A stretch of DNA of 64,000 bases from Thermococcus sp. MV5. Its GTDB lineage: Archaea > Methanobacteriota_B > Thermococci > Thermococcales > Thermococcaceae. The position numbers and the translations under genes were made by a program. The notes beneath the pieces are model-generated. The model saw only the letters and a list, made by a program, of their open reading frames with translations, was not told where the DNA came from and did no database searches. The first letter of the stretch is position 1; the number at the start of each line of letters is the position of its first letter. Positions 20,902-38,114 of this stretch are shown in pieces. The stretch lies in the NCBI RefSeq assembly GCF_012027425.1, contig NZ_SNUE01000007.1, positions 1 to 64,000 of the forward strand, written 5' to 3'.

Positions 20902-22464
20902 TCAATGGAGAACTTTTGAGGCGAGATTTAAGACCACATTTATATAGCTGTTGTAATCTAGTGTTTGTACCACTGCAGGTGCTATGAGCTTGTCTACGAT
21001 GACTGGTGCCATTAGTCCAATTGCAAGACATGTTAATGCTAACAGCAGACAAATTAGGCTCATGCTGAGGGGTTCTTTGGTTTTTATATCTTCTCTCGGT
21101 TTTCCAAACCATATGACGTAGAAGATGCGCATGTATGCAATCAACGCAATTATCGAGCTTATAACAAGGATCCAAGCCAGGATCAAGTTTTTATCAATGA
21201 AGGCGTTGAATAATAATAGTTTGCTGAAGAACACGTTAAGTGGTGGGATCCCGACCAAGCTTAATGTTGCAATTGCTAGTGAGAAGGTAGCAATTGGCAT
21301 TCTTCTTCCCACTCCAGCCAACTCTTCAATGTTCCTAGATCCAATAGCATGAATGAAGATCCCGGCCGCGAGGAATAATAATGCCTTGGCAATGGAATGA
21401 TTAACCAAATGGAACAACGCTGCTTGTAGGCCTACTTCTGTCCCCAACCCCACAGCCATGAAAAGGTAACCCATATGCATTATAGTTGAATACGCTATAA
21501 GCTTCTTAACATCTTTTTGCACATTCATCATCAAAGCACTAAAAAGTGCGGAAAGGGCACCAAGAGCAATGACAATAACACTGAGCAGGCTGACCACGTG
21601 AGCCAAGTCTGGAGCTAAAGAACCGCCATAAACAGTGTACAAAAATCTAATTAACGCATAAACACCAACATTAACGACCAAACCGGAGAGGATTGCTGAA
21701 ATTGGACTTGGCGCTGCTGGGTGGGCCTCTGGAAGCCAGAAGTGGTTTGGGACAATGGCCGCCTTGATAAGGAACGCCCACGTGGCTAACGCTAAAGCAA
21801 CACCCGAGGCAATTACGATGTTACCAGCTGGTGTTCCACTAACTGGGAAGTTTAGGCCATGAACCTTTGCAGATAAATCGGCGAAATTAACCGTACCAAA
21901 TACGCCATAAAACACTCCTAAGGCGAGGAAATACATTGTTGTTCCAGCAGCCCCTATTAAAGCGTATTTTAATCCAGCAAAAACTGAATCACCCCTGTCA
22001 CGATAAAACATTACTAATGCATAAGCTGCTATGCTTGTGACTTCAATCATAACGAAGAGGTTGAAAGCATCACCTGTCAGGAGAACTCCGAGCAGACCAG
22101 CCTCAAGGCTAAGGTAGAGTGTGTAATACCACTCCAAGCCTTCATCGTGTTCAAGATAACGATAACTGTAGATTGCAATTAAAAACATTAATCCAGCGGT
22201 GAGCAAGGCAATTAGGGCATTTAACTTGTCCACCTCATATACAATTCCAATTGGAGCAATCCATTTGCCGAAAGTATAGATTAGGGGAGTGTTTGAAGAG
22301 TAGACCAAGTGAAACAGTCTATATGAAGAGATTAAAGCTAATCCAGTTCCAATTAGAGCATAAAGTTGAATGATTTTTCTGTTTCCCTTGACTAGGATTG
22401 AGAATAATGGGAGTGCAAATGCAAAGACGATTGGAATTATCGGGGTTAAACCAACAACATTCAT
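20902..22464 (-). CDS. Mrp-type antiporter subunit D (proton-translocating)
   Basis: About 520 residues with some 14 hydrophobic segments and the antiporter-like core: LEAGLLGVLLTGDAFNLFVMIE, LPEAHPAAPSPISAILSGL and the Lys/His-bearing helix MGYLFMAVGLG. It is homologous to MrpD/MbhH and NuoL/M/N. It is the last gene of the CO island on the minus strand. ATG 22464 follows GAGGTGGCAAAGA. In the complex it would move H+ or Na+ driven by the hydrogenase. Confidence 0.88.
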   Translation of the reverse strand: MNVVGLTPIIPIVFAFALPLFSILVKGNRKIIQLYALIGTGLALISSYRLFHLVYSSNTPLIYTFGKWIAPIGIVYEVDKLNALIALLTAGLMFLIAIYSYRYLEHDEGLEWYYTLYLSLEAGLLGVLLTGDAFNLFVMIEVTSIAAYALVMFYRDRGDSVFAGLKYALIGAAGTTMYFLALGVFYGVFGTVNFADLSAKVHGLNFPVSGTPAGNIVIASGVALALATWAFLIKAAIVPNHFWLPEAHPAAPSPISAILSGLVVNVGVYALIRFLYTVYGGSLAPDLAHVVSLLSVIVIALGALSALFSALMMNVQKDVKKLIAYSTIMHMGYLFMAVGLGTEVGLQAALFHLVNHSIAKALLFLAAGIFIHAIGSRNIEELAGVGRRMPIATFSLAIATLSLVGIPPLNVFFSKLLLFNAFIDKNLILAWILVISSIIALIAYMRIFYVIWFGKPREDIKTKEPLSMSLICLLLALTCLAIGLMAPVIVDKLIAPAVVQTLDYNSYINVVLNLASKVLH

Positions 22465-22475
22465 TCTTTGCCACC

Positions 22476-22961
22476 TCACTCGAAAATCTTCTTAGCAAAG
22501 CGTTCAAAATCCTCGCAAATTTTTTTCTTTGCTTCTTTAGGTTCTTCTGTAATTACATTAATCCAATTTGCATACATATGTTTGTCATCCAACTCAACTA
22601 CGACAGTTCCAGGAGTGTTCGTTATTGAATTTGCAATGAGGGTTTTTGCATAATCAGTCTTCACTTCAATTGGCACTTTAACAATTCCAGCTTGGTATTT
22701 CCCAGTTATTACCCTCATCATCACATCCAAGTGTGCCTTTGTTTCTGCGACAAGCATGTACCAGATGAAGTAAATCACGCCCCAGAGCCACCTGAGTGGA
22801 TTTAAAGCCTTAGCATCATTTTGGACGAGGTGTTTTCCGACAAGCAGGCCCACTCCAACAGCAACAATTACCCCTGTAACTAAGTCGAATGGCTTTGTTG
22901 AACCAGTAAATAGGATGTAAGTGATGAATGTCAATACTGCAGTAGAGATTACACCCCTCAT
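22476..22961 (-). CDS. Mrp-type antiporter subunit E
   Basis: 161 residues, MrpE/MnhE family: an N-terminal two-helix membrane part, the basic RWLWGVIYFIWYMLVAETKAH segment and a soluble C-terminus with ITNTPGTVVVEL, which is family specific. It overlaps the subunit C gene by 4 bases. Subunit E precedes D here, unlike the D-E order of bacterial mrp operons. Confidence 0.87.
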   Translation of the reverse strand: MRGVISTAVLTFITYILFTGSTKPFDLVTGVIVAVGVGLLVGKHLVQNDAKALNPLRWLWGVIYFIWYMLVAETKAHLDVMMRVITGKYQAGIVKVPIEVKTDYAKTLIANSITNTPGTVVVELDDKHMYANWINVITEEPKEAKKKICEDFERFAKKIFE

Positions 22962-23371
22962 ACTCTACCCTCCCTAAGTAGAGTAGACTGCTCTTCACCA
23001 AGCTTTCTTGCATCCACAGTCCCGTATAAACGGTAAATTTGAATTATTGCAAAGGCTATGAGCACGTTTACAGCCATTCCAATGACGACGGCAGTGATTA
23101 CAAATGCCTGTGGGAGGGGATCAACCGCGGTGCTCAGAAAGCTCTCAAGTGCGCTCTTCTCAAGGTTCGGAAGGACGGGGGGAGCTACCGGGTAGATTAA
23201 GCGATATCCGAGTAAAACGACAAGCAAGTTAGCGGTGTCAGTGAAGATTGTCAATGCAATGAGTTTTTTGGTTAAGTTAGGTCTTCTCGCAATTCCATAG
23301 AGGCTTATCATGACTGTTGCAATTAGAGATAATACAATGACCGCCCAGATGAACGTCATGACTTCATTCAT
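22958..23371 (-). CDS. Mrp-type antiporter subunit C (NuoK-like)
   Basis: 137 residues with three hydrophobic helices. LTIFTDTANLLVVLLGY and DPLPQAFVITAVVIGMAVNVL are the conserved MrpC/MnhC and NuoK blocks; the Pro-Leu-Pro-Gln-Ala motif is characteristic. It overlaps the genes on both sides (ATGA-type coupling upstream and downstream). Confidence 0.9.
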   Translation of the reverse strand: MNEVMTFIWAVIVLSLIATVMISLYGIARRPNLTKKLIALTIFTDTANLLVVLLGYRLIYPVAPPVLPNLEKSALESFLSTAVDPLPQAFVITAVVIGMAVNVLIAFAIIQIYRLYGTVDARKLGEEQSTLLREGRV

Positions 23372-24134
23372 TGGCCTCCCTCCTCAAGAGCTTCTTGAAT
23401 ATTTTTTCCGGAATTGCTAGGAGTAAGAATACTGCCGTGAATCCAGCTCCAACTGCTAGGAATTCAAAGAAGTTGTAGTAAATCAATGAACCACTTACAA
23501 GCTGTCCTCCAAGCTCGACTGGAAAAATCGGTTGGTTCTGCATTATGAAGCCACCGCTGAGGAGCGGGATTAATGCCACTAATCCCATTCCAAGTAATCC
23601 CACGGAACGGAGAATCAATGCCATTGTCTTGTCGAGACCGTTCTCTTCTAGGGCATACTTTGAGTATGCGACTATTATTAAGAGTGGGGCAATTGCTAGT
23701 GCTGAACCGCCTTGGAAGCCACCACCAGGGGTTAAGTGGCCGTGCAAAGCTATTGAAGCCGAAACTGCAAGAATCATGACTACAATAATTCGTGTAACCG
23801 ACTTTATAACAAGAGTTAACCCAACCCTAAACTCTTTTGTCTTTTGTTTCGCCTCCTCTTCTTGCTTCTTATTTAGTCTGAAGAGTGTTAAGCTTCCAAT
23901 TATTGCAATAAAGAATACCGAAGTTTCGAAGAGAGTATCAAGCCCACGGTAGTCCCAGAGGATTGAGGTCACAACTTCAGGACTCTTTGCGGAGTAATCC
24001 CCAAAGTAGCTATTCTCCAAGTAGAATTCGCCTAGCGGTCTTAGTTCGGTTTGTTGTGGGAGTTTGGGAGTGATGTGGTAGGCTAATCCAAATATTGTGA
24101 TAAGCATGATTATGAGTGGAACTAACCTCTTCAT
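23364..24134 (-). CDS. Mrp antiporter subunit: MrpA C-terminal (MbhE-like) fused to MrpB
   Basis: 256 residues in two parts. The first (to about residue 95) contains DYRGLDTLFETSVFFIAIIG, the segment found at the C-terminus of MrpA or as MbhE. The second has ILAVSASIALHGHLTPGGGFQGG and ends with FFEFLAVGAGFTAVFLLLAI, the MrpB domain. Thus two units that are separate in Mbh hydrogenases are one polypeptide here. ATG 24134 is preceded by GAGGTGGCGTAAA. Confidence 0.83.
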   Translation of the reverse strand: MKRLVPLIIMLITIFGLAYHITPKLPQQTELRPLGEFYLENSYFGDYSAKSPEVVTSILWDYRGLDTLFETSVFFIAIIGSLTLFRLNKKQEEEAKQKTKEFRVGLTLVIKSVTRIIVVMILAVSASIALHGHLTPGGGFQGGSALAIAPLLIIVAYSKYALEENGLDKTMALILRSVGLLGMGLVALIPLLSGGFIMQNQPIFPVELGGQLVSGSLIYYNFFEFLAVGAGFTAVFLLLAIPEKIFKKLLRREANE

Positions 24135-24135
24135 T

Positions 24136-24390
24136 TTACGCCACCTCATATCTTTCTGTTTTACTTACCACAAAGACCAATAGTGCAGAATAGATACCAA
24201 CGGCCACTGCTACGTAAGCTAGAACGATGTCTGGTGCCATTAGAATGTAAAATGCAATAGCATAAGCAATGGCTTGGACTGCTGAGAAGCCAATGGCCTT
24301 GAGTAAATCCTTCTCTATTATGGCAAGGTAGGAAAATATTAATCCAATGATTACTGTGATGAGGAGCATTAACAAGTGGATTTCAATCAT
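24136..24390 (-). CDS. DUF4040/MbhD-like antiporter subunit
   Basis: 84 residues, two to three helices: SYLAIIEKDLLKAIGFSAVQAIAYAIAFYI and ILMAPDIVLAYVAVAVGIYSA. The APDI(V)LA motif is that of DUF4040, the helix pair usually found in the C-terminal part of MrpA or as MbhD. ATG 24390 follows GGAGGTGGAAGA. It overlaps the subunit G gene by 4 bases. Confidence 0.82.
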   Translation of the reverse strand: MIEIHLLMLLITVIIGLIFSYLAIIEKDLLKAIGFSAVQAIAYAIAFYILMAPDIVLAYVAVAVGIYSALLVFVVSKTERYEVA

Positions 24391-24737
24391 TCTTCCACCT
24401 CCAAGTGGTCGCATTTTGGCTCCCACTTGACAATTTTAGTTTTGTGGGCAGCATAGGCCAAAGCATGAGAACCAGCTGGTGCTGCAAGTAAGACGATTAT
24501 TCCAGTCACGAAACTGGCTCCCGCGATTGCATACTTGTGAGGCAAGAAGTCTGCTCCGAGTGCAAGGAAGCCAACACCAAATAACGGCACTACTGCTCCA
24601 CCAATAGTTCCTACTGTGGCAGCGTGTAAACGAATGTAAAAGTTTGGGAACTTTAATAGTCCGAGAGCACCAAACAGATCACAAATCCCACCAATGGTTA
24701 TCATGATCGCTCCCAAGTAGAATAAAATCTCGCTCAC
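24387..24737 (-). CDS. Mrp-type antiporter subunit G
   Basis: 116 residues of MrpG/MnhG: GAIMITIGGICDLFGALGLLKFPNFYIRLHAATVGTIGG is the family core, three membrane helices. The start is GTG 24737 with GGAGGTGGGAGT before it, coupled by four bases to the subunit F stop. The 60-base longer open frame lies inside the F gene and is not used in my view. Confidence 0.87.
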   Translation of the reverse strand: MSEILFYLGAIMITIGGICDLFGALGLLKFPNFYIRLHAATVGTIGGAVVPLFGVGFLALGADFLPHKYAIAGASFVTGIIVLLAAPAGSHALAYAAHKTKIVKWEPKCDHLEVEE

Positions 24738-25018
24738 ACTCCCACCTCCTTGCCAACTAGGTACTTCGCAACGTAAATGTCTAGCAGGTAGGCCCACAAT
24801 GCTAGTGTTATTGCTCCACTAATAAGAAACGCCGATTTAAAGTAAATTGCGAGAATCGCCATGAATGCAGCGATGTCAAAGGAGAGGCAATCAACTGCTA
24901 GGATTATATCCACTATCGTTGGACCCTTAAATGCCCTAATCGCATAGATGATGAACGCCAACAGGTAAAGAGGAATCACAAATTTCATCAAAAGAAAGAA
25001 ACTATTTTCAAGACTCAT
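24734..25018 (-). CDS. Mrp-type antiporter subunit F
   Basis: 94 residues, three helices, with IRAFKGPTIVDIILAVDCLSFDIAAF, the conserved region of MrpF/MnhF carrying the intramembrane Asp. ATG 25018 is preceded by GGAGAGCAAAA. It overlaps the end of the hydrogenase small subunit gene by 11 bases, the junction between hydrogenase and antiporter modules. Confidence 0.87.
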   Translation of the reverse strand: MSLENSFFLLMKFVIPLYLLAFIIYAIRAFKGPTIVDIILAVDCLSFDIAAFMAILAIYFKSAFLISGAITLALWAYLLDIYVAKYLVGKEVGV

Positions 25019-25586
25019 TTTTGCTCTCCTCCGAAGTTTTAACAATTATTTGAGGTAAAAAGTGTCTTGTTTCCCTTGCCTCCTCAAAGAGAACTTCAAT
25101 TGTATCCGTTGTCTTCTCGTCAAGTTCTTCGATGTAAATTTCTTTTTTCTGTTTCTGCTTTACTAAGCCTCTTGCAACCCCTACAGCATAGATTATTGCT
25201 TCTGGCTTAGGAGGACAGCCCGGAATGTAAATTGTTGTAGGAGGCTCAATACCATATTCTTCCTGGAGGATTTTGTACAGCTCTTTCACGCCCCCAATTA
25301 CGGCATATGTGTCGTACCATATTCCTCCACCACAAGCACAGGATCCAATAGCTAAAACTATTTTTGGCTCTGGGACTGCCTTAAATGCTTCAATGACCTT
25401 TGGCAGGCATTCCCTTGTGACTGGGCCTGTAAAAGCTATCGCATCAGCATGTCTTGGTGAACCAACAAGCTTAATTCCGAGTCTTTCAACATCTTGCTTG
25501 GGAGTGAATATATTAAGTACTTCAATGTCACAGCCGTTGCAGCTTCCACTGTTTAAGTGAAAAACCCACAAACTCTTCTCAAACAT
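25008..25586 (-). CDS. Energy-converting [NiFe] hydrogenase small subunit (NuoB-like)
   Basis: 192 residues. The four ligands of the proximal [4Fe-4S] cluster are Cys16 and Cys19 (SGSCNGCD), Cys83 (GSCACGGG) and Cys124 (PGCPPKPE). It relays electrons from the ferredoxin-like subunit to the Ni-Fe site. The C-terminal 50 residues are charged and beyond the NuoB core. ATG 25586 is preceded by GGTGGGGGAT; it overlaps the end of the ferredoxin-like subunit. Confidence 0.9.
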   Translation of the reverse strand: MFEKSLWVFHLNSGSCNGCDIEVLNIFTPKQDVERLGIKLVGSPRHADAIAFTGPVTRECLPKVIEAFKAVPEPKIVLAIGSCACGGGIWYDTYAVIGGVKELYKILQEEYGIEPPTTIYIPGCPPKPEAIIYAVGVARGLVKQKQKKEIYIEELDEKTTDTIEVLFEEARETRHFLPQIIVKTSEESKNES

Positions 25587-26094
25587 ATCCCCCACCTTTC
25601 CCAAAGATCAATTTCTCAGAAACTTTCTTTGCTCTACATTCTGGGCATAGAAACATCATTTCTCTTTCCCAAGGCTGAAGCTCCTTTGCTGTGTAAAGTA
25701 AATGTCTAAATGTATCAAAGGGTTTACCACATTCTTCACAACGAACCATTTGAAGTTCTACTATTTGGTGGAGGTCTTCGTCAGATAATGTTGCAAGCTC
25801 AAACTCTTTAGTTAACTTTATTGCCTCCGTGGGACATACATCTTGACAGCGAGCACAGAAGATGCACCTTCCTATGAAGAGGTGAACTACTCTAACTCCA
25901 CTTTCCAAGTCATCATAAACCTGTAATGCTTGAGGAGGGCAGGCATTTGAACATGCTGTGCAACCAATGCATTTTTCTGGGTCGATTATTGGTTTTCCCC
26001 TAAATCCTTCTGGAACTTCAAGTGGGACAAAAGGATACTTTTCTGTTACTCTTCCAATGCTTATAGCCTTGGTAATAAGCTTAAATCTCCCCAT
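25579..26094 (-). CDS. Hydrogenase ferredoxin-like subunit (NuoI-like)
   Basis: 171 residues. Two [4Fe-4S] motifs: Cys42-45-48-52 and Cys77-80-83-87. A second pair of cysteine knuckles, Cys119/Cys122 and Cys150/Cys153, could bind zinc and is typical of the formate- or CO-linked group 4 hydrogenase subunits. It connects CooF electrons to the small subunit. GGGGGGC lies upstream of the ATG, three bases after the large subunit stop. Confidence 0.9.
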   Translation of the reverse strand: MGRFKLITKAISIGRVTEKYPFVPLEVPEGFRGKPIIDPEKCIGCTACSNACPPQALQVYDDLESGVRVVHLFIGRCIFCARCQDVCPTEAIKLTKEFELATLSDEDLHQIVELQMVRCEECGKPFDTFRHLLYTAKELQPWEREMMFLCPECRAKKVSEKLIFGKGGGYV

Positions 26095-26097
26095 TGC

Positions 26098-27708
26098 TTA
26101 GAGCCCCCCAAGATAATTATCAAGAGAGCACCTGTATACCTTTTCTCCATCCACAATAACAATGTGATCTGTACACGAGAAACAAGGGTCTATTGAGGCT
26201 ATTATTATCGGTGCATCGGCCAGTTTCTCTCCCTTGAGCATTATAGGGACTGCAGGTAAGTTATTGTAAGTTGGCGCTCTAGGATGCCATCTGTAAACTC
26301 TATTGCCCTCCCCCATTATGGCAAAGTGCACGTCTTCTCCCCTCGGAGCTTCAGTTGCTCCAACACAGATGGTGTATTCCGGGAGTTCATAATCCTCGTT
26401 TAGAATGTCTCCTGGGGGTAGTTGGTCTAAAGCCTGCTCAATGAGCCAGATGCTTTCAAGCACTTCTTCATATCTAACCAGAAATCTTGAAAGAACGTCC
26501 CCGTCCTTATATACGGGCACTTTGAACTCCAAGTCTCCATAAGCGGCATATGGATGATCTCTCCTTACATCAGTGTCAATGTCAGAACCTCTAGCAGTTG
26601 GGCCAACTACACCTATTTCTCTCCCTTCCTTCTTTGAGAGAACTCCAATCCCCTTCATTCTATTTATTAACTCTCTCATTTGTGTAGCATTGTCAAAAAT
26701 CTCTCTTATATCTTTTTTCGTCTTATCTAAAATTTCCAAGAGTCTTTTCTTTTTGTTTTCATCTATATCTCTTCTAACTCCACCAATAAGATTCATTCCG
26801 TAGGTTTTTCTATTTCCTGTCAAAAGCTCCGCCAAGTCCATGAATGTCTCTCTTATCCGCCATGTGTGCATGAATCCGGACTCAAAGCCGAGTAAATGGA
26901 AAGCAACGCCAAGCCAGAGCATATGTGAGTGCACTCTTTCGAGCTCAAGGAGTATGGTCCTTATGTAGAGGGCTCTCTCTGGGACTTCAATTTTGGCGGC
27001 ATCTTCAATCGCTTGAACATATGCACAGTTATGAGTATAACCGCAAATTCCACAAATCCTCTCAGCCAAGAATGGTATCTGATTTATTGTCATCCTCCCT
27101 TCTGCTAATTTTTCCATTCCTCTATGGACATGAAATCCTCTGTAAACTGCCCCAACTATTTCCTCACCTTTAACACACAGCTCAAACACTTCTGGCTCAT
27201 GAAGTGCTGGATGATAGGGACCAACTGGAACCTCTATAACTCCAGGTTTTTTCTCTCTCTTTTGCTTAAACTCAACTCTTGGGGGCCTTTCATTGTAATG
27301 AAAGTCTTTTCTAAGTGGATAAACACCTTCAGGCCAATCATCAGGTAGAATAAGCCTCAACGGCTCTGGATGCTCATCAAAGAAAATTCCCAACATATCC
27401 ATTACTTCTCTTTCGGCCCAGTTTGCGCCGCTTATAATGGGGGTAATTGAGGGAATCCTTAAGTTGCTTGCAACTGCTTTGATGATTATATATCTTCCTT
27501 CAGCTTCGCAGTTAAAGATGTGATACACTGAAAAACCTACTCCCAATAAGCGCTCATCAACGCCAGCTCCAGTTGCATAATAACAGCCTGCTTTGAAAAG
27601 TAGCTCTGAAGTAGTTCTGAGCTTATCATTGGGTATCAATGCCACAGTAACCTTTTCATCGTGTCTCAGAATTTTAGCATTGTTGCTTTTTAAGATTTCA
27701 AGGATCAC
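26098..27708 (-). CDS. Energy-converting [NiFe] hydrogenase large subunit, NuoC-NuoD fusion
   Basis: About 536 residues. The first 150 form the NuoC-like domain (AEREVMDMLGIFF is typical), the rest the catalytic NuoD-like domain. Both nickel motifs are complete: RICGICGYTHNC and DPCFSC, so this is a hydrogenase and not a Ni-less complex I subunit. After DPCFSCTDH 22 residues remain. The start is uncertain: GTG 27708 has GGTG six bases before, while longer frames to 27738 overlap the NuoH-like gene more. Confidence 0.9.
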   Translation of the reverse strand: MILEILKSNNAKILRHDEKVTVALIPNDKLRTTSELLFKAGCYYATGAGVDERLLGVGFSVYHIFNCEAEGRYIIIKAVASNLRIPSITPIISGANWAEREVMDMLGIFFDEHPEPLRLILPDDWPEGVYPLRKDFHYNERPPRVEFKQKREKKPGVIEVPVGPYHPALHEPEVFELCVKGEEIVGAVYRGFHVHRGMEKLAEGRMTINQIPFLAERICGICGYTHNCAYVQAIEDAAKIEVPERALYIRTILLELERVHSHMLWLGVAFHLLGFESGFMHTWRIRETFMDLAELLTGNRKTYGMNLIGGVRRDIDENKKKRLLEILDKTKKDIREIFDNATQMRELINRMKGIGVLSKKEGREIGVVGPTARGSDIDTDVRRDHPYAAYGDLEFKVPVYKDGDVLSRFLVRYEEVLESIWLIEQALDQLPPGDILNEDYELPEYTICVGATEAPRGEDVHFAIMGEGNRVYRWHPRAPTYNNLPAVPIMLKGEKLADAPIIIASIDPCFSCTDHIVIVDGEKVYRCSLDNYLGGL

Positions 27709-27710
27709 TT

Positions 27711-28592
27711 TCACCACCCCACTATAGCGATCATCCACACAATCAATGCCACTATGGAGGCCCGTTTCAGTATCTCAATGGCTTGGTCAATCCTGAATCT
27801 TCCATAGTAAGCTTCGAATGTTGAATAAATCACTGAGAGGATTATTGTGCCAATGAGATAACAAATGAGTCTTATTGGGTTCTGGATTGGAATAATGAAA
27901 TCTAAAAGCAAGCTGTAAAGGAGAAGGCGCTTCAGAAAGATGGAATACTTAAGTAAGCCAAGATGTTTTCCGCTGTATTCAATTAGAGGGCCTTCAATTA
28001 TTTCGGGTTCAGCTTCGGCAATGTCAAAGGGCAATCTAGTACTTGCAACGTATATCACAAGGAAAAGTAGGAGCAATGCAAGGACTGAGGAAATCCTAAA
28101 AGGCAAAGGAAATAATCGATCAAGACTCAGGCTTTTGCCTATTACAGCTATCGTACCTACGATAAATGCCAAAAGTAGTTCTTCACTCATAAAGAGAGAA
28201 ACATCTCTGTTTGAACCTATCTGAGCATATGCATTTCCTGAGGAAAACGCTCCTATGACAAAGCATAAAGTTGCCAAACCAAGAAGATAGACAACAACTA
28301 TAAGGTCTCCGATGAAGTTTGTTGAGGCAGGCAAGAGTGTTGGGATTATTAGATAAGCTGTTAGGATAGATGTAAAAGTTATGTAGGGAGCGAGCTTGTA
28401 GAGGGGTTTAACAGAATCTTGAGGTTCAATTGTGGGTCTCTTGAAGAGCTTTATCAAGTCCCACCATGTCTGAAGGATTGATGGGCCTTGTCTATTCTGC
28501 AAGCGTGCTCTGATTTTCCTCTCAAAACCATCTATTAGGGGGCTAATAATCAGGGCAAATGCCAAGTTGACTGCTATGAAAATGATGCTCAT
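27711..28592 (-). CDS. Hydrogenase membrane anchor subunit (NuoH-like)
   Basis: 293 residues, about eight helices. DGFERKIRARLQNRQGPSILQTWWDLIKLFKR and PFDIAEAEPEIIEGPLIEYSGK are the NuoH/HycD signature loops. It holds the hydrogenase arm in the membrane and links it to the antiporter-like subunits. It overlaps the preceding gene by ATGA. Confidence 0.92.
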   Translation of the reverse strand: MSIIFIAVNLAFALIISPLIDGFERKIRARLQNRQGPSILQTWWDLIKLFKRPTIEPQDSVKPLYKLAPYITFTSILTAYLIIPTLLPASTNFIGDLIVVVYLLGLATLCFVIGAFSSGNAYAQIGSNRDVSLFMSEELLLAFIVGTIAVIGKSLSLDRLFPLPFRISSVLALLLLFLVIYVASTRLPFDIAEAEPEIIEGPLIEYSGKHLGLLKYSIFLKRLLLYSLLLDFIIPIQNPIRLICYLIGTIILSVIYSTFEAYYGRFRIDQAIEILKRASIVALIVWMIAIVGW

Positions 28593-30496
28593 AGTCCAAC
28601 ACCCCCCAATACTGCCACTAGAATCACTATCAGAACCATTGCAATAGATAGCATTGAGTCCAAGTCATAGGAGAAAACTTCAAACTTGGTTCCAAGTATT
28701 CTCCCAATCTCCGCAACTTTTTGCACAAATCTCTTACTGGCGTCACCTAGGGTGTAGACTTCCCTGAAAACCTCTCTAAAGTCCCTGTAATAAGCATCAG
28801 CGGGCATGCTTATGTTGAGGTCTTCACTTCTCCCAGTCTTCCAAGTTGGCACAACCTCACCCCTTGAAGGAATAAGCAGCAAGACTATTAGTGTCGAAAC
28901 TAGCAAGAATGCAAAGATTATTATTGGCGAATAGCTGCCAGTTCTCGGCACAACAAGAGAAGGATAAACTACAAGAGAGGCTAACGGAATGCCTATTGAA
29001 CCTAAAGCTTGGGATATCATTTTCAATGGGATAAAAGGATAAATTCCAAATGCTATACACAGCAAAGCTAAGAGAAGCTGGGGAGCAGACATTAAAAGCG
29101 GAACTTCCTTTGCATCAATTTCCTTAACTGGGGGTTTTGTAAAGATTGCTGTAAAGTACTTTACAAAAGTTCCAAGGGTTACAGCGCTTATGAAAATTGC
29201 AATTATTCCAAAGAGTGAAGTTGCTGGTGACGAGAGTGTTGAAATATAGATCATCCATTTGCTTACAAATCCATTGAGAGGGGGCACACCTGCTATTGCA
29301 AGTGACCCTATCAAGGCAGTGGAAGCAGTTAGAGGCATCTTCTTTGCTAAGCTACCCAAATAGTTTAAATCTCTTGTGCCAGTTTCATACATCACTGAAC
29401 CGGCCGTAAGGAAGAGAAGGCCTTTGAAGAAAGCATGGCTCATTGTATGGAAGAGTGCAGCGGCTAGAGCTATCCCCCCAAAAAGCTGATTTCCACTTGC
29501 GAGGAAGTAAATCCCAGCTCCCATTGGCAAAAGGATGTATCCGATATTGTCTATACTTGAAAAAGCCAATAAACGTTTTGAATCTTCCTGGAGCAAAGCG
29601 TACATCATACTGAAGAAAAGTGTAAGAACTCCAAATATGGCTATTATAATTCCAATTTCTGGTTTCAATGGGAAGAAGCTAAGAAAAAAGCGGAACATCA
29701 TATATATGGGTAGTTTAATCATGATTCCGCTTAGTAATGCCGAAACATTGCTTGGGGCCTCTGGGTGAGCATCTGGAAGCCATGAATGGAGTGGTACCAT
29801 GGAGGCTTTGACCCCGAGCCCCACGAGCAATGAGAACGTTAGGGTATAGAGGATTGTCGAATGAACTGAGAGATAAGCTGGCAGAACATTAGCGATTTCA
29901 GAGTAGTTGGCATTAAAGTTCGTAGCTTTGAGAATTATCAGTATAAGAGCTAAAACAATAAATTCAGCTCCAGCTTTTGTCATGCAGAAGTACTTGAATG
30001 CTGCTCTTACGGCCTTCTCCTTTCTCTGTTCAAATGCAACCAAGAACTGTGAAAACAGGGTCATAAGCTCCCAGAAGATTATAAACCACAGCAAATTCCA
30101 GCATATCACCACAAGGTACATTGTCAGTATGAAAAGAGGATAGTTGAAAGTGTAAACACGCATATCCTCCCTCTCAAAATACCTTTCCATATATTCGATG
30201 CCATAAACTGATGTACAAAGGCTTAAGATTCCTAATATCAACAGAAAAAAGGCGGAGAGTGCATCAACTCTAAAAACAAGATAGTTAAGAGATGCAAAAA
30301 ATGAGGGTGAATTGAACAAGTTGTATTTAAGCTCAATGGTTGTTTTAAGTCCCAAGACCCCATTATATATTATTACTGCTGATGCCACTGCTGATAATAT
30401 GCTTACTATCTTGAGAGCTACTTTTGCCTTTGATAGCCCTACCAATGCTGCTATAATTAACACACCAATGGGTATCAACAACATCTGAGCTTCCAT
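28589..30496 (-). CDS. Hydrogenase-associated antiporter-like membrane subunit (NuoL/HyfB-like)
   Basis: 635 residues, around 15 helices. Motifs of the NuoL/M/N family include WELMTLFSQFLVAFEQRKEKA, LPDAHPEAPSNVSALLSGIMIK and HAFFKGLLFLTAGSV. The C-terminal 110 residues form an extra soluble and helical stretch ending in one more membrane helix, as in HycC/HyfB. I take ATG 30496, which overlaps the cooT stop; GGTGAACA lies upstream. It probably carries an ion channel driven by H2 production. Confidence 0.9.
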   Translation of the reverse strand: MEAQMLLIPIGVLIIAALVGLSKAKVALKIVSILSAVASAVIIYNGVLGLKTTIELKYNLFNSPSFFASLNYLVFRVDALSAFFLLILGILSLCTSVYGIEYMERYFEREDMRVYTFNYPLFILTMYLVVICWNLLWFIIFWELMTLFSQFLVAFEQRKEKAVRAAFKYFCMTKAGAEFIVLALILIILKATNFNANYSEIANVLPAYLSVHSTILYTLTFSLLVGLGVKASMVPLHSWLPDAHPEAPSNVSALLSGIMIKLPIYMMFRFFLSFFPLKPEIGIIIAIFGVLTLFFSMMYALLQEDSKRLLAFSSIDNIGYILLPMGAGIYFLASGNQLFGGIALAAALFHTMSHAFFKGLLFLTAGSVMYETGTRDLNYLGSLAKKMPLTASTALIGSLAIAGVPPLNGFVSKWMIYISTLSSPATSLFGIIAIFISAVTLGTFVKYFTAIFTKPPVKEIDAKEVPLLMSAPQLLLALLCIAFGIYPFIPLKMISQALGSIGIPLASLVVYPSLVVPRTGSYSPIIIFAFLLVSTLIVLLLIPSRGEVVPTWKTGRSEDLNISMPADAYYRDFREVFREVYTLGDASKRFVQKVAEIGRILGTKFEVFSYDLDSMLSIAMVLIVILVAVLGGVGL

Positions 30497-30717
30497 CACT
30501 GTTCACCAGCTTTTATTTCATCTCCACTTGAGAGTTTCAAATACACCTTATGAGAAATGAAATCGATATACTCAATTCTGTATCCCTCAAGAGTGAGCTC
30601 TTTTCCAAGCAAATTTTTGACAATAATCTTGTTATCCTTAATTTCGAGCAAAGTTACGTCTGTCATAACTACCTCAGCTTTCTCATCTTCGAGAACTATG
30701 ACCTTAGACTGGCACAT
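30496..30717 (-). CDS. cooT: CooT family nickel-binding protein
   Basis: 73 residues. It begins MCQSKVIV, with Cys2 at the place where CooT proteins bind nickel, followed by a small beta-barrel pattern (VTLLEIKDNKIIVKNLLGKEL). Position between cooC and the hydrogenase genes supports a role in nickel delivery to CODH. It starts one base from the cooC stop and overlaps the next gene by one base. Small and easily missed by annotation. Confidence 0.78.
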   Translation of the reverse strand: MCQSKVIVLEDEKAEVVMTDVTLLEIKDNKIIVKNLLGKELTLEGYRIEYIDFISHKVYLKLSSGDEIKAGEQ

Positions 30718-31524
30718 TCATCCCACCTTTGAACGCTTTTTTATGCTCAGTATCTTTTTTGCAAGGGCGTCAACGTCCTTATATATTGGAGAATCCTTTG
30801 GGATTGCGTCAACGCCCTTTCCTTCATTATCAACAGAGATAACGCTTTCATCAAAGCTTACAATGTGGTAGGGGGTTGAATCTGAGAAGATTTTTGCAAA
30901 AAGATGGGAAGCTTCGAGAAAGTCGTAAACCTTATTTATTACGAGAAATATGTTTGAGATGCTAAGCTGTTTTCCCATTTCTATGAGTTTTCTTGCTATC
31001 ATTAAGGATTTTAGGGTTGGCTCTGCCACACATATCATTAAGTCAAATTTCTCTGCCAGTCCACGTCCGAATACTTCCGCCCCGGCTTCACTGTCTACAA
31101 TCACAATATCCTTTTCAGAAAGCAGGACATGCATTAAAAAAGCTCTTGCAAGGGCTACTGCTGGACATAGGCAGCCTTCTTTACTTTGCTCTATGCTTCC
31201 AATGACTACAAGTTTCAAATTTGGCTTTATTGTTATGCCATACTGGTCGGCCAAATCATCAACCTTTGGAGTTAGCGAGAACAGAACTCCCCAACCTTCA
31301 CCAGGTCTTGCTCCGGTTCTCTCCTCCGCAAGCTTATCATTTCGTGAAAGCGGTACAATTTCTAGAGCTTTTTCAAAAGGGATTCCTAGGCTTTGAGCGA
31401 GATTGGGAACCGAATCCGTATCTAAAGTCAGTATGTTATACCCTTTGTCAGCTAAGATATAAGCTAACAATGCTGAAATTGTGGTTTTTCCGACGCCTCC
31501 TTTTCCAGCAACAAGTATCTTCAT
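30718..31524 (-). CDS. cooC: CooC-type ATPase for CODH nickel insertion
   Basis: 268 residues of the MinD/SIMIBI class. The deviant P-loop GKGGVGKTT is at residues 7-15 and Cys118-X-Cys120 (EGCLCPA) is the metal-binding pair of CooC dimers. DSEAGAEVFGRG is the switch region. It inserts nickel into the CODH C-cluster in an ATP-dependent way. ATG 31524 has GGAGGTC seven bases upstream. Confidence 0.9.
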   Translation of the reverse strand: MKILVAGKGGVGKTTISALLAYILADKGYNILTLDTDSVPNLAQSLGIPFEKALEIVPLSRNDKLAEERTGARPGEGWGVLFSLTPKVDDLADQYGITIKPNLKLVVIGSIEQSKEGCLCPAVALARAFLMHVLLSEKDIVIVDSEAGAEVFGRGLAEKFDLMICVAEPTLKSLMIARKLIEMGKQLSISNIFLVINKVYDFLEASHLFAKIFSDSTPYHIVSFDESVISVDNEGKGVDAIPKDSPIYKDVDALAKKILSIKKRSKVG

Positions 31525-31599
31525 TTTAATGACCTCCAATGATTAAATTGCACTTCTTCTATAATTGCTTTTTTAAAATTAGAGACTAAAAATGAAAAG

Positions 31600-33501
31600 T
31601 CAAAGGGGCCATTTGAGTTTCTTTCTTTTTTCAATTATTACGTTGTAAATTGTTTCTGCTGCTTTCACAGGATCTGGCTCGACGTAGAATTTTCCTCCAA
31701 TGAGATCCTCGACGTCATCTGTGAGGAGTTTGGTGACTTTCTGGCTTCCGAGAACTGGTGGAACAACACCTAGGTGGGTGAATACACCGCTTGCAACGAA
31801 GTAGGTCCCTATTGAGACTGCTTTTTCGCTCATCCATTCTGGAGCAGAGCCGGCTGCCGGCAGGTCTGGAATGTCAACTCCCAAAGCATCGGCAAGAGCT
31901 CCGAGGACGATTAGAATCCTTGAACAGTCAACACAGCTTCCCATGTGCAGACATGGTGGAATTCCGAGTGCCTCACACACCGCTTTAAGTCCCTCTCCTG
32001 CCATCTTAGCAGCTCCAGGTATCATTAAACCATCCATTGCTGCAGCAATTCCCCAGCAACCAGTTCCAACTACCAAAATGTCTCTCTTTATGAGTTCTTT
32101 GGCTATTGTTACATGGCTGTGATTGTGCTTAACCTTTGGGTTGTTGCATCCAACAATTCCAACGACTCCTTTAATTGTGCCCTCTTTAAGTGCATTAATG
32201 AGAGGTTCAAGGGTTCCTCCCAAAGCCTCAAGAATTGCCTCGACACTGAAGCCTGCAACGACTTCACTCTTGTGTTTTGGAATGTAAACTCTCTCCTTTG
32301 GTCTGTTCTGGAAGTTTTCAATTGCAATTTTGATTATCTCCTTGGCAATTTCATCTGCTTTCTCTGGTTTGAACTCTATGTGCACTGCTCCAGGTATGTG
32401 ACCTTTTGGCTCGGTTGTGATTATCTTTGTGTGGTAGCATCCAGCCACATCAACTAATGCAGGCATTAAGCATTGGTAATCCACAATCATAGCCTCAACG
32501 GCGCCTGTTATTATTGCTAATTCTTGCATCAGGAAGTTTCCGGCCGGAGGAATGCCAAGCCGCATCAAAACTTCATTCCCGGTACAGCACATTCCCACAA
32601 CATTTACTCCCTTGGCCCCGTGCTTCTTTGCTAGCTTTTGCATCTCCTCGCTTTGGGCGACCTCACATATCTTCATTGAGAGTACTGGATTGTGGCCGTG
32701 GACAACTATATTCACATAATCCTCTTTGAGAACACCCAAGTTTGCAACAGTTTTAATCGGTTTTGGTGTTCCGAAGAGGATGTCACTTAGATAAGTAGCC
32801 ATCATTGAGCCGCTCCAGCCATCGGCCAATGCTGTTCTAACGCCGTGAAGGAGAAGTGAGGCTGGATCTGCATCGACACCTATATGCGTTCTGTGCATGC
32901 ATTCACAAATTTCCCTATCAATTGCTCTCGGTAGAACTCCAAGCCTCTCCCAGACTTTAATTCTCTTCTTAGGTGCCGTTGCCATGAGTAACTTCATTGG
33001 TTCATCATCAGGCTTTCCGAACTCTAATTCTAGGATATGTGCAACCTCCAGGCCTATTTCGCTTTCAGTTTTTCCTTCAATATTAATGCCAAGAATTTGA
33101 GCTAACCCTTTAAGTTTCTCAACGTCTGTCAGCTTGTATCCCTTGAACTCCCCTGTTGTTGCTCCTCTAAACACATGAACAATATCTCTTGCATGATCGC
33201 TGTGTGCTGCAGCACCAGCTGCAATCATTCTTAGAAGGTTTCTTGCAACTATTGTGTCTGCATCTGCTCCACAAACACCTCTAGTTGGCCCAGCGCCGAA
33301 TGGGTCGATTCTACATGGCCCCATGTTACAGTTTCTACAACACACTCCCAGTAGTCCAAATCCACATTGGGGTTGTTGCTCCAAAAAGCGATGCCAAGCA
33401 GTTTTTACGCCTTCTTCTTCCCCTTTTTCAATTAGATCAGCGACTCCCTTGGTTTTGGACACCTGCTTTGCAGGTACCTTAAACTTTATGTATTCCGCCA
33501 T
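31600..33501 (-). CDS. cooS: Anaerobic carbon monoxide dehydrogenase catalytic subunit
   Basis: 633 residues, normal for Ni-Fe CODH. D-cluster ligands Cys46/Cys54 and B-cluster ligands Cys55, Cys58, Cys63, Cys77 match the family spacing. C-cluster residues are present in VHGHNP, GMCCTGNE, VGCNNP, GTGCWG and GSCVDCSR. It oxidises CO + H2O to CO2 with two electrons passed to CooF. GAGGTGGTTGAG precedes ATG 33501; the longer frame overlaps cooF and is unlikely. Confidence 0.96.
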   Translation of the reverse strand: MAEYIKFKVPAKQVSKTKGVADLIEKGEEEGVKTAWHRFLEQQPQCGFGLLGVCCRNCNMGPCRIDPFGAGPTRGVCGADADTIVARNLLRMIAAGAAAHSDHARDIVHVFRGATTGEFKGYKLTDVEKLKGLAQILGINIEGKTESEIGLEVAHILELEFGKPDDEPMKLLMATAPKKRIKVWERLGVLPRAIDREICECMHRTHIGVDADPASLLLHGVRTALADGWSGSMMATYLSDILFGTPKPIKTVANLGVLKEDYVNIVVHGHNPVLSMKICEVAQSEEMQKLAKKHGAKGVNVVGMCCTGNEVLMRLGIPPAGNFLMQELAIITGAVEAMIVDYQCLMPALVDVAGCYHTKIITTEPKGHIPGAVHIEFKPEKADEIAKEIIKIAIENFQNRPKERVYIPKHKSEVVAGFSVEAILEALGGTLEPLINALKEGTIKGVVGIVGCNNPKVKHNHSHVTIAKELIKRDILVVGTGCWGIAAAMDGLMIPGAAKMAGEGLKAVCEALGIPPCLHMGSCVDCSRILIVLGALADALGVDIPDLPAAGSAPEWMSEKAVSIGTYFVASGVFTHLGVVPPVLGSQKVTKLLTDDVEDLIGGKFYVEPDPVKAAETIYNVIIEKRKKLKWPL

Positions 33502-33511
33502 CTCAACCACC

Positions 33512-34147
33512 TCAATACCACTTAACTTCCGAATAGGATGCATAAATATTCTTTGGGCTTACTTTTTCTTCTTCTTTCTTTTCTTCAACAACAGGCTTCA
33601 TGTATACAATGCCTGGGACTTTTAAGCCTGAGATAAGTTCTTCCGCTCTTTCTCTTCTAATCTCATGCAGAATTTCCTCAAGAGACCCAAACTTCAATGC
33701 TTTAGTGGGGCAGGCTTCTACACATGCTGGCTCTCTGCCCTCCCGAACCCTCTCAATGCATGAATCACACTTCAGAACAACCTTGTATTCTGCCTCGTAT
33801 TTCGGATGTCCAAATGGACATGCCATAACACACATCAAACAGCCAATACACTTATTGGAATTGAGAACTACAAAGCCCTCCTCACTCTTCTTTATTGCTC
33901 CTGTCGGACACACACGTATACATGGAGCGTCTTCGCAATGCTGACATCTTAGTGGGACATTGAAGAAATCTGCAACCACGACTTTTAGCCTCGGTTTGGG
34001 TGTTGGTGTTTCAAAGATTGCTCCAAATAGTGTTTTGCTCATTGAATGTTCTATAGCACACGCTATTTCACAAGACCTGCATCCCATGCATTTCTCGGGG
34101 TCAATGTAAATTGTTGGTCTCTCTAAATTTGTTCCAAGAGGCAGCAT
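33512..34147 (-). CDS. cooF: CooF-like four-cluster ferredoxin
   Basis: 211 residues with four [4Fe-4S] cysteine groups of the DMSO-reductase B/HycB type: CMGCRSCEIAC from Cys20, CQHCEDAPCIRVCP, CIGCLMCVMACP and CDSCIERVREGREPACVEACP. It shuttles electrons from CooS to the hydrogenase. The last 35 residues are a charged tail (VVEEKKEEEK). GAGGTGATAACA precedes ATG 34147. It is the first gene of the long operon; its regulatory gap to corR is 104 bases. Confidence 0.93.
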   Translation of the reverse strand: MLPLGTNLERPTIYIDPEKCMGCRSCEIACAIEHSMSKTLFGAIFETPTPKPRLKVVVADFFNVPLRCQHCEDAPCIRVCPTGAIKKSEEGFVVLNSNKCIGCLMCVMACPFGHPKYEAEYKVVLKCDSCIERVREGREPACVEACPTKALKFGSLEEILHEIRRERAEELISGLKVPGIVYMKPVVEEKKEEEKVSPKNIYASYSEVKWY

Positions 34148-34178: not shown

Positions 34179-34214
34179 GAACTTAATAATAAACTCGTGT
34201 TCGGCAAATAAACT
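34179..34214 (-). promoter_or_regulatory. cooF promoter region with 8-bp direct repeat
   Basis: On the minus strand AGTTTATT occurs twice, at 34214-34207 and 34195-34188, 19 bases apart, close to two helical turns. The second copy merges into TTTATTATTAAG, a possible TATA element about 20-25 bases before a start site that would precede the GAGGTGAT of cooF. The repeats are a candidate operator for CorR; this is inference. Confidence 0.35.
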
Positions 34215-34251: not shown

Positions 34252-35364
34252 TTAGTATTCATAAAGTGATACTATTGCTCTTTCTCTAATCTCTTTGTAC
34301 TCCTTCAGAAGATCTTTAGCAAAATCTGTTAGAATTGTTATTCCCTTCTTTCTTCCTCCTCTAACGGATATAATCAAGGAGATGTCCAGCTTTTCTTCGA
34401 GGCTTTTTATTTTTTCCCAATATGTTGACGGGGAGACTCCAAGAACTTTACATGCACCTCTAAAGGAGTTAATCTGGGATATTAATTCTAAAAGCTCTAA
34501 AACCTCTCCAGGAATCTCGACACCCTCTTTTGTCACAAATGAGACCTGTATTTTAGGGGAAAGTCTAATGACTTTTTGACTTACCGGGCATGGTGAAAAA
34601 AGCATTTTTCTTAAATCTTCTCTTGTTATCCTCTTGTAGTTCACCTCGAATTTCGAAAGTGGGCACTTTGAAAAATTTCCATAGGGGTTTAGATATAGGG
34701 TTCTACAGTTCTCGGCGCTTGGAGAGGTAAGTAATGTTACTGGATAATTGTCTATAAAGATTTTAATGGCATTATAGAAATATTTCCTTCCATAATGGAG
34801 GCCAATTTCGACATTTTCTTTCTTCACAATTTTTTCGAGGAATTTGTCTGTATATGGAGATGTGTAGAAGCTTGGTCCTAAAATTATTTTCAATCCATAA
34901 CTTTTGCATAGATCAATTATTGAAAAGAGCTCTGCAAAATCAGAGTTAGAATCCAGTAGAATGTATGCTTCAAGGTTGTCTATACCTTGGGAAAGGAGCA
35001 TTTTCACTATCTGAAGGCTTGATTTTAAATCTTTATAAGTATGGATAATCAGAGAGATAAAATCAACATTTTCAAGGAAGGTTTTGTGAAGGAAACTTCT
35101 TGAAACAGACACTGGAAGGAAGAGGGTAATATTTCTGCAGAATTTCCCCATCTCTCTAGTTATGACATCAATCTTTGGATGAAGGAGAGGATTTGGACAT
35201 ATCAAAACTCCCTCATCAAATTTGAAATCTTCAAGATTAGAGGTGAGTACCTCCAATGCTTCAAGAGGTAGCATTACTCCAACACAACTAAACTTCTCTT
35301 TCCAAGGGCATGCTAAACAATTACTATCGCATTTGCTCGAAGGTTGAACTGCTAAGATATTCAT
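34252..35364 (-). CDS. corR: CorR: CO-responsive regulator, radical-SAM-like domain plus ModE-type HTH
   Basis: 370 residues in two parts. The first 270 look like a radical SAM barrel: Cys12, Cys16 and Cys19 in KCDSNCLACPW form a CX3CX2C motif, with further cysteines downstream (ENCRTLYLNPYGNFSKCP resembles a SPASM-like region). The last 80 are a winged helix of the ModE/LysR N-terminal kind (SFRGACKVLGVSPSTYWEKI, then VRGGRKKGITILTDFA). It sits between corQ and cooF, the position of corR, the activator of the CO cluster in T. onnurineus. Start ATG overlaps corQ. Confidence 0.78.
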   Translation of the reverse strand: MNILAVQPSSKCDSNCLACPWKEKFSCVGVMLPLEALEVLTSNLEDFKFDEGVLICPNPLLHPKIDVITREMGKFCRNITLFLPVSVSRSFLHKTFLENVDFISLIIHTYKDLKSSLQIVKMLLSQGIDNLEAYILLDSNSDFAELFSIIDLCKSYGLKIILGPSFYTSPYTDKFLEKIVKKENVEIGLHYGRKYFYNAIKIFIDNYPVTLLTSPSAENCRTLYLNPYGNFSKCPLSKFEVNYKRITREDLRKMLFSPCPVSQKVIRLSPKIQVSFVTKEGVEIPGEVLELLELISQINSFRGACKVLGVSPSTYWEKIKSLEEKLDISLIISVRGGRKKGITILTDFAKDLLKEYKEIRERAIVSLYEY

Positions 35365-35915
35365 CACTCAAATATCACCTCAAATCCACAGAAGGAGTTG
35401 CCAAGTCCCCAGCAGTAAATTTCACGCGTTATATTTTTTCCAACAAGATCTTCCATGACTCCTTGAATCAATCCAGCTTCAAAGTCACATAGGGTTCTCC
35501 CAATAGGGGGTGCCTGATAACAGCTGATGCACTCATATATGTTCACTTTCATTCTGCTGAAGGACTCTTCTATAATGTCAAGGAGCCCTATCTTCTGATT
35601 TAGAAATACTTTTGGCAGATCATCAATGCTTTTAATTTCACCGGTTTCTACCAATCTGCAGGCTAAATTATACCCCGCACCTCTTAGAATTAGAGTTCTT
35701 AAGGACGGGCTGTATTTAAGCATGCCATATAGGATCATTCTAAAAGTCCTCACGTATTCTCTATCCTCTGGAGAAATTTTCGTAAAAAACGGCCGTACAA
35801 TATTGAAATAATTCTCAGGAGTTAGTTTAACTTCCTCCCTAAGTTTCTTTTTACTTTTGACCTCCGCTTTATAAATTTCCCTCCACTTTTCTATTAGAAT
35901 ACCAACGTCTTCCAT
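35364..35915 (-). CDS. corQ: CorQ: V4R-domain partner of CorR
   Basis: 183 residues. The C-terminal half (from about residue 125) is a V4R (4-vinyl reductase) small-molecule-binding domain: YECISCYQAPPIGRTLCDFEAG and a cysteine-rich end. Cys129, Cys132, Cys143, Cys168 and Cys176 could ligate a metal or cluster. The N-terminal half is helical. Four-base-type overlap with corR suggests a stoichiometric pair. corQR is known in T. onnurineus as the CO-responsive regulator; the sensing chemistry is not settled by sequence. Confidence 0.78.
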   Translation of the reverse strand: MEDVGILIEKWREIYKAEVKSKKKLREEVKLTPENYFNIVRPFFTKISPEDREYVRTFRMILYGMLKYSPSLRTLILRGAGYNLACRLVETGEIKSIDDLPKVFLNQKIGLLDIIEESFSRMKVNIYECISCYQAPPIGRTLCDFEAGLIQGVMEDLVGKNITREIYCWGLGNSFCGFEVIFE

Positions 35916-36927: not shown

Positions 36928-37187
36928 GAAAGGGCTTTGTCAAGGAAGTGTTATCCAAGCTTAAATATGATCCTCGTGAAAATGAGGAGGATTATTATAT
37001 CATCATAGAACATAGAGGCGCTTATGGAGATATAAAAAAGATTCCTGTCAAACTGATAACTCTTGGACATGGGTATTTTTTCATTGAAGATACACAAATT
37101 CCTTACCATAGAATTCTTGCAGTAGTTAGAAAAGATGGAAAAATAATATGGAAAAAACGTGGATTAGGAGATAAATTCAAATTCTGA
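36924..37187 (+). CDS. DUF504/MJ1316-domain protein
   Basis: 87 residues. VLSKLKYDPRENEEDYYIIIEHRG and IPYHRILAVVRKDGKIIWKKRG are the DUF504 (UPF0248, MJ1316) blocks; the domain has been proposed to bind cyclic RNA ends. The start is GTG 36924 overlapping the upstream stop (GTGA). Its 3' end overlaps the convergent DUF835 gene by 24 bases. Confidence 0.82.
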   Translation: MRKGFVKEVLSKLKYDPRENEEDYYIIIEHRGAYGDIKKIPVKLITLGHGYFFIEDTQIPYHRILAVVRKDGKIIWKKRGLGDKFKF

Positions 37188-38114
37188 AATTAGAAGCTCC
37201 TTCTTCTTTTCTTCAAATGTGTTCAGCTCCCCAGAAATTAGTAAAAAACTTTTACTCACAATTGCATGGTCTTTTAGGTATGTCAGTATTTCAAAGAGCT
37301 TTTTGAATCCAATTTTGGCATTAAGGTGTTCAATTCCCTCTATTGCGAGTATGGTGTCTCCTTGCTTCAAAAAGTCTATCATGAACTTCTTGGAGTCTTC
37401 AAAGCGCTCTGGTGAGATTGAACCGACTACTGGAATGTTTGTTATCCAATAAACCTCTATCTCTCTCTTAAAGAGCCTTTTAATAGTTTCTGGATCATCT
37501 CGTGTTATAACCATGCTTCTTCTGTTGTCTAAAATGTTCATAAGGAAGTAACGGGATTTGAACTTACTTGAGAAAAGATATCCTCCCGGGGAAGGCTCTT
37601 TGAGCTTAACTTCATCTTCAGATAGCGCAAGGAGCAAGTCGTAGAGTTCTTTTAATTCCTCATAATGTTGTTGTGCTTTTCTTGACATTTGGGAAAGAAT
37701 TAACTTCAACTTTTCATCAATGGAAACTCTTGCTAAAATTTCATAAATCTCCTTTTCTAGCAGTTCATTGTTCATGCATACACGGAGAACCTTTAAATAC
37801 TCAGTAACACTAGTCAAAGTCTTTTGAGGAGGTTTGATATCAAGAAGCGGTAAGTCAAGTTCTATTGGTTTTTCTTCTGGATAAAGGAGTTTGAATTCGT
37901 TATAAAGTTCATCTCTATGTTTAAGATTTTCTTCAGAAAGCATAGAAAAGAGAGCTTTTGCACTCTCTATATAGCTGTTTTCAGAAAGTTTTTTATAATA
38001 CTCGCTCTCTTTTTCTTTATTAGGTATCAAATAACTCAGAATTTCTTTTGGAGACCTATCTTTAAGATACTTAATGATTTGATCGTTCTGTATTAGATGT
38101 GACCAAATCTCCAT
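37164..38114 (-). CDS. DUF835 protein with helical, ferritin-like N-terminus
   Basis: 316 residues. The C-terminal 130 (from about GGYLFSSKFKSRYFL) are a DUF835 domain, with ITRDDPETIKRLF, VYWITNIPVVGSISPERFED and TILAIEGIEHLNAKIGF; this domain resembles a decayed RecA/KaiC-type fold. The first 180 residues are helical, with two E-x-x-H-like segments reminiscent of ferritin-like proteins. A second DUF835 protein with a membrane N-terminus is at 47434. Function unknown; a signalling or regulatory role is only a guess. Confidence 0.72.
   Translation of the reverse strand: MEIWSHLIQNDQIIKYLKDRSPKEILSYLIPNKEKESEYYKKLSENSYIESAKALFSMLSEENLKHRDELYNEFKLLYPEEKPIELDLPLLDIKPPQKTLTSVTEYLKVLRVCMNNELLEKEIYEILARVSIDEKLKLILSQMSRKAQQHYEELKELYDLLLALSEDEVKLKEPSPGGYLFSSKFKSRYFLMNILDNRRSMVITRDDPETIKRLFKREIEVYWITNIPVVGSISPERFEDSKKFMIDFLKQGDTILAIEGIEHLNAKIGFKKLFEILTYLKDHAIVSKSFLLISGELNTFEEKKKELLISEFEFIS

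Follow-up and report, generated by a model that had tools for sequence, protein, structure and literature searches.

Structure prediction confirms that the sensor domain of the archaeal regulator CorR has a radical SAM fold, most like that of MoaA. The domain keeps its predicted cluster cysteines and has lost a key motif for SAM binding, and CorR has acquired a DNA-binding tail; together these features make it a good candidate for an iron-sulfur (Fe-S) sensor of CO or redox state. CorR and its neighbor CorQ are the known CorQR system; new here are a set of seven fixed cysteines in CorR, the loss of the GGE motif, and a conserved DNA element, CCGAACACG.

The window analyzed is a 64,000-nt stretch of a 1.98 Mb Thermococcus-type draft genome, in which the locus reads along the minus strand as corQ, corR, cooF, cooS and cooC, with genes for hydrogenase and antiporter continuing as far as about 20902. 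corQ (35364-35915) encodes 183 residues and corR (34252-35367) encodes 371 from a GTG start, or 370 from the ATG at 35364, from which CorR residues are numbered below. The corQ stop and the corR start overlap by four bases, and both frames are open. After them come cooF (33512-34147, with its ATG at 34147), encoding a ferredoxin-like partner of CO dehydrogenase (CODH) with Fer4 domains; cooS (31600-33543), encoding the Ni-CO dehydrogenase itself (TIGR01702, 783 bits); a cooC-like ATPase gene with CbiA/ParA-type domains (30718-31539); and the part of the CODH cluster that encodes the membrane-bound hydrogenase and the Na+/H+ antiporter (about 20902 to 30499), all on the minus strand. The window thus shows the CorQR arrangement, a V4R gene and then an HTH gene directly before cooF-cooS. 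Elsewhere on the minus strand, 37164-38114 encodes a protein that combines DUF835 with a weak rubrerythrin-like region.

All complete loci examined have corR together with cooF and cooS, and corQ adjoins corR in all loci except one, in genome G405. The CODH genes accompany hydrogenase genes in Thermococcales and hdr genes in a Korarchaeal genome (G150) and in an Archaeoglobales MAG (L037). The electron partner thus differs between lineages, whereas the association of the regulator with CODH persists. Two corQ genes appear damaged, through either sequencing error or real loss: one is frameshifted near its 3' end (L004, genome G031), and in the other the open frame starts late (L008, genome G021). 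A contig binned as Thermotogota (L035) also bears a Thermococcus-like corQR-cooFS locus. Because this locus groups inside the Thermococcus sequences, the contig is probably mis-binned, and we reject it as a bacterial occurrence of corQR.

The CorQR system of Thermococcus onnurineus NA1 was reportedly the subject of a 2015 study by Kim and coworkers (AEM 81:1708). In the literature, CorQR is named as a CO-responsive activator of the T. onnurineus CODH cluster, and a delta-CorR strain that overexpresses corQR appears among the high hydrogen producers. Accessible papers that cite the pair characterize the two proteins only as a LysR-type HTH protein (CorR) and a 4-vinyl reductase (CorQ), and make no mention of a radical SAM fold for CorR. 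The first-pass annotation had placed the adjacent CODH cluster under control of the pair by analogy with this organism, and our comparison supports the CODH link. One locus in our set (L054) holds exactly the published 36-bp footprint of the T. onnurineus EnfR repressor, and the window CorR is 52% identical to the CorR of that locus (51-52% across L054 and L055). The likeness to T. onnurineus is therefore one of orthology, with an orthologous V4R and HTH pair before the CODH cluster in both.

Our view of the CorR fold is based on 21 sequences, drawn from Thermococcales, one Archaeoglobales MAG, six loci of Korarchaeia and a further MAG with a divergent copy. The AlphaFold2 model computed with them (pLDDT 85.5, pTM 0.73) comprises six strand-helix units, followed in turn by a sheet of three strands, a hairpin that bears C220 and C234, and the HTH. 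When the model was compared with the PDB by Foldseek, the first four matches were MoaA structures (E 1.7e-9 to 5.4e-8, TM 0.53-0.59; best match 2fb2_B, E=1.7e-9), followed by other radical SAM enzymes and then by ModE, matched through its HTH. Residues 1 to about 270 are thus assigned to a MoaA-like domain, predicted to form the partial (beta/alpha)6 TIM barrel of the radical SAM superfamily. The first-pass annotation had proposed a radical SAM scaffold and had named in advance, as the test of it, such a barrel with the three cysteines together at its mouth; the prediction bears out the barrel. An earlier AlphaFold2 run with 10 close sequences reached a pLDDT of 55.6 and gave Foldseek matches to the HTH alone; it was replaced once the Korarchaeal relatives had been added.

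Profile comparisons lend support that is independent of the structure model. Aligned by hhalign with single radical SAM sequences, the sensor-domain profile of CorR gives probabilities of 91-95% and E-values down to 6.6e-8, whereas the best of 47 other ORFs in the window reaches a probability of 2%. A protein of the same genome that was picked solely by its Pfam Radical_SAM match (L090) aligns to the CorR profile with E=1.1e-6. Across 394 archaeal genomes, the proteins that the profile finds outside its own family are of radical SAM type in 19 of the 19 loci examined. Searches of CorR with Pfam, NCBIfam and PDB sequences do not detect the domain: PF04055 does not match the window CorR, and the Korarchaeal CorR reaches E=0.016 and 15.8 bits, below the gathering threshold of 29.5. 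A separate, ordinary radical SAM protein, matched by PF04055 at 46.7 bits, is encoded on the plus strand of the window at 1640-2614.

Of the 11 cysteines in CorR, seven are universal (12, 16, 19, 56, 220, 234 and 259). Over the 21 sequences, whose identities fall to 23%, 15 sensor-domain columns are invariant (C12, C16, C19, L32, C56, P57, L97, L123, G157, P208, C220, G229, C234, P235 and C259), and the share of cysteine among them, 7/15, has a hypergeometric P of 3.5e-8. Cys12, Cys16 and Cys19 (codons in 35308-35331, minus strand) form a CX3CX2C motif, as had been read from the window alone; it follows strand 1, coincides with the cluster motif in the hhalign alignments and is invariant in all 21 sequences. 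Shuffled CorR sequences contain such a motif by chance in 0.7% of cases anywhere and in 0.09% within the first 40 residues.

The second group, Cys220, Cys234 and Cys259 (region 34588-34707, minus strand), resembles an auxiliary-cluster motif, and the spacing C220-x8-G-x4-C234 is the same as in the auxiliary motif of MoaA-type radical SAM proteins. CorR therefore has in common with MoaA and the SPASM/Twitch enzymes the fold, the CX3CX2C after strand 1 and the C-x8-G-x4-C element. Compared with the CX2CX13C of MoaA, the CX13C part is present, whereas the first cysteine is missing in Thermococcales and sits at -4 in most Korarchaeal members. That only three cysteines are universal at this site counts against an Fe-S reading.

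The region between corR and cooF holds a likely operator. In 18 aligned intergenic sequences from Thermococcales and Archaeoglobales, CCGAACACG is invariant and lies 44-48 bp ahead of the cooF start, with an A+T-rich, TATA-like stretch following it closely. Its window copy is at 34196-34204 (minus strand), 48 bp ahead of the cooF ATG and beside a TATA-like stretch at about 34182-34193; one copy is observed in the window against 0.07 expected, and the second of the two in the genome falls within an archaellin-like coding ORF. Many loci carry a matching TGTTC 7-8 bases upstream, which makes an inverted repeat, and the window has a weaker version of it. In the Archaeoglobales MAG L037 the element occurs twice (2751-2759 and 9127-9135), one copy standing before cooF and one before the hdrA operon that adjoins corQR, which suggests a shared CorR regulon. 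CCGAACACG is our leading candidate for the operator of CorR. We considered it as part of the EnfR site and rejected this, as it stops 3 bases short of the EnfR footprint in T. onnurineus. The corR-cooF gap of Korarchaeal loci contains TTCGGAA (L058, L062 and L072) or TCGGAACA (L061), possibly a diverged operator.

We propose, with roughly even confidence, that CorR is an activator with a repurposed MoaA-like sensor domain, which would sense through Fe-S chemistry and act with CorQ at CCGAACACG. Two clusters would most likely be held, one by C12/C16/C19, near which C56 occupies the former SAM site, and one by C220/C234/C259 at the auxiliary site; the first might have C56 as its fourth ligand. 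Either CO would bind an open iron site, most plausibly on the three-cysteine auxiliary cluster, or CO would drive a change of redox state. Such an event would alter the CorR dimer so that its ModE-type HTH binds CCGAACACG, and CorR placed there, close ahead of the TATA region of cooF, would recruit the transcription machinery. CorQ, a putatively zinc-stabilized V4R protein translated from the mRNA that also encodes CorR, would be an obligatory partner, presumably in a complex with CorR.

Direct CO sensing by the predicted CorR clusters is plausible. A sensor of redox or of Fe-S and iron status, to which CO would matter indirectly through reduced ferredoxin or poisoned clusters, is in our judgment a doubtful alternative. 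A predicted Fe-S protein with possibly all-cysteine ligation would suit redox sensing, and the V4R regulator MsvR is redox-responsive through its three V4R cysteines (C206, C232 and C240). However, CorQR is described as CO-responsive in the literature, and the genes regulated here are CO-specific.

The sensor might also be CorQ, whose V4R domain had been noted in the first-pass annotation together with five cysteines in the last 55 residues. Both observations are accurate: PF02830 matches with E=9.8e-13 (48.4 bits, cut-off 31), and Cys129, Cys132, Cys143, Cys168 and Cys176 lie in that stretch, with Cys86 in addition. The accompanying idea that these cysteines might hold an Fe-S cluster fares less well, and we set it aside. 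The residues universal across the CorQ family are C143, E165, C168 and C176, while Korarchaeal members lack C129 and C132. In MopR-type V4R domains, three cysteines and one glutamate form a structural zinc site, whose ligands in DmpR are Cys151, Glu172, Cys177 and Cys185. The cysteine spacings are 25 and 8 in CorQ versus 26 and 8 in DmpR and MsvR, and the glutamate spacing is two off the published DmpR value. Because its universal residues match this site, CorQ is most likely a zinc-stabilized ligand or partner domain. The C..E..C..C site is common to CorQ and the V4R regulators DmpR, MopR, PoxR and MsvR; unlike them, CorQ is without a DNA-binding or AAA+ domain, and in Thermococcales and Archaeoglobales it has an extra CX2C. 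A PDB sequence search with CorQ found nothing.

If CorQ were to sense CO or a metabolite in its V4R pocket, CorR would simply bind DNA and its clusters would be structural or would tune stability. We consider this unlikely, even though V4R is a sensor fold in other regulators, which counts against CorR as the sensor; in DmpR and MopR the effector is bound by the V4R domain, which carries this zinc site too, and the near-constant adjacency of corQ to corR would fit as well. However, apart from the zinc ligands and a handful of other residues, CorQ has little in common between Korarchaeia and Thermococcales, whereas the seven cysteines of CorR are retained. In G405, moreover, a divergent CorR-like gene (L114:10210-11247) ends a cooF-cooS-cooC-hydrogenase cluster without a V4R neighbor; the sole V4R gene of this MAG, which has 6% contamination, is a 265-codon frame on another contig. 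This case weakly suggests that CorR carries the essential sensing part.

The first-pass annotation had called the cysteine pattern standard for radical SAM proteins, and this held for the three-cysteine motif but not for the GGE motif, which is absent after strand 2 in all 21 CorR sequences. The residues that hhalign aligns with the radical SAM GGEP are C56-P57-N58-P59 (codons 35188-35199, minus strand). C56-P57 is invariant in 21/21 and CP[ND]P is present in 20, the most divergent sequence (L078) having CPW. A GGE-like motif was found by regular expression in 24 of 43 comparison proteins, the other 19 failing the same expression, versus none of the 21 CorR sequences; we used the GGE result alone, a loose expression for the TNG and SLD landmarks being too permissive. 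Given those 19, the loss of GGE alone does not exclude SAM use. Variation of this region outside the CorR family is also seen in a radical SAM-like protein (L065:1456-2277) with MNDPF at the expected GGEP. The loss combined with a fixed Cys-Pro in its place suggests that CorR no longer carries out SAM radical chemistry. With the cluster cysteines kept and GGE replaced, the Fe-S ligands seem to have been retained and SAM handling lost, and CorR is probably no longer a SAM enzyme. It differs from MoaA and the SPASM/Twitch enzymes in this replacement and in its added C-terminal HTH.

We regard as quite improbable a reading in which CorR would still be catalytically active, a radical SAM enzyme with an attached DNA-binding domain that modifies a partner or takes SAM as its co-effector. 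The fold and the CX3CX2C motif would accommodate this, as would the aspartate that most Korarchaeal CorR members have at the Glu position of the GGE region, but the uniform absence of GGE and the near-uniform C-P-[ND]-P argue against it.

The DNA-binding part of CorR, a ModE/LysR-type winged helix at residues about 286-368, is matched by PF00126 (E=3.8e-7), by the NCBIfam ModE domain (E=8.4e-10) and by the solved ModE-like structure 2ijl (E=1.4e-7), in agreement with the ModE-type HTH first assigned to it. The full ModE model scores 38.6 bits against a cut-off of 98.5 and covers the HTH part only, and no molybdate-binding domain was found in CorR. This winged helix is common to ModE/LysR-type regulators; LysR-type proteins, however, have an N-terminal HTH and a C-terminal effector domain, whereas in CorR Pfam finds HTH_1 only, placed C-terminally, and no LysR effector domain. 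That the CX3CX2C is a coincidence and CorR an ordinary LysR-type regulator, as annotated, is barely credible: Pfam does see the HTH alone, but the predicted fold, the profile results and the missing effector domain contradict this reading.

The well-described CO sensors of carboxydotrophs, CooA and RcoM, are both heme-based. Like CorQR they exert CO-responsive control over CODH genes, but they are heme proteins of other folds, and Pfam finds no such domains in CorQ or CorR. Searches of an open-access library found no radical SAM transcription factor and no CO regulator like CorR. CorR may be the first described transcription factor derived from a radical SAM enzyme fold that has abandoned SAM chemistry, bears a cysteine in place of the SAM motif and senses CO directly through its clusters, a combination we advance tentatively and at somewhat less than even confidence. 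If true, it would represent a non-heme principle of biological CO sensing in Thermococcales and Korarchaeia and would show a route from an Fe-S enzyme fold to a gene switch. CorR with its candidate operator would also offer a control point for engineered CO-to-hydrogen strains, and the fixed seven-cysteine set, one member of which lies at the SAM site, narrows the search for CO sensing in archaea to a definite place and to a few residues worth mutating.
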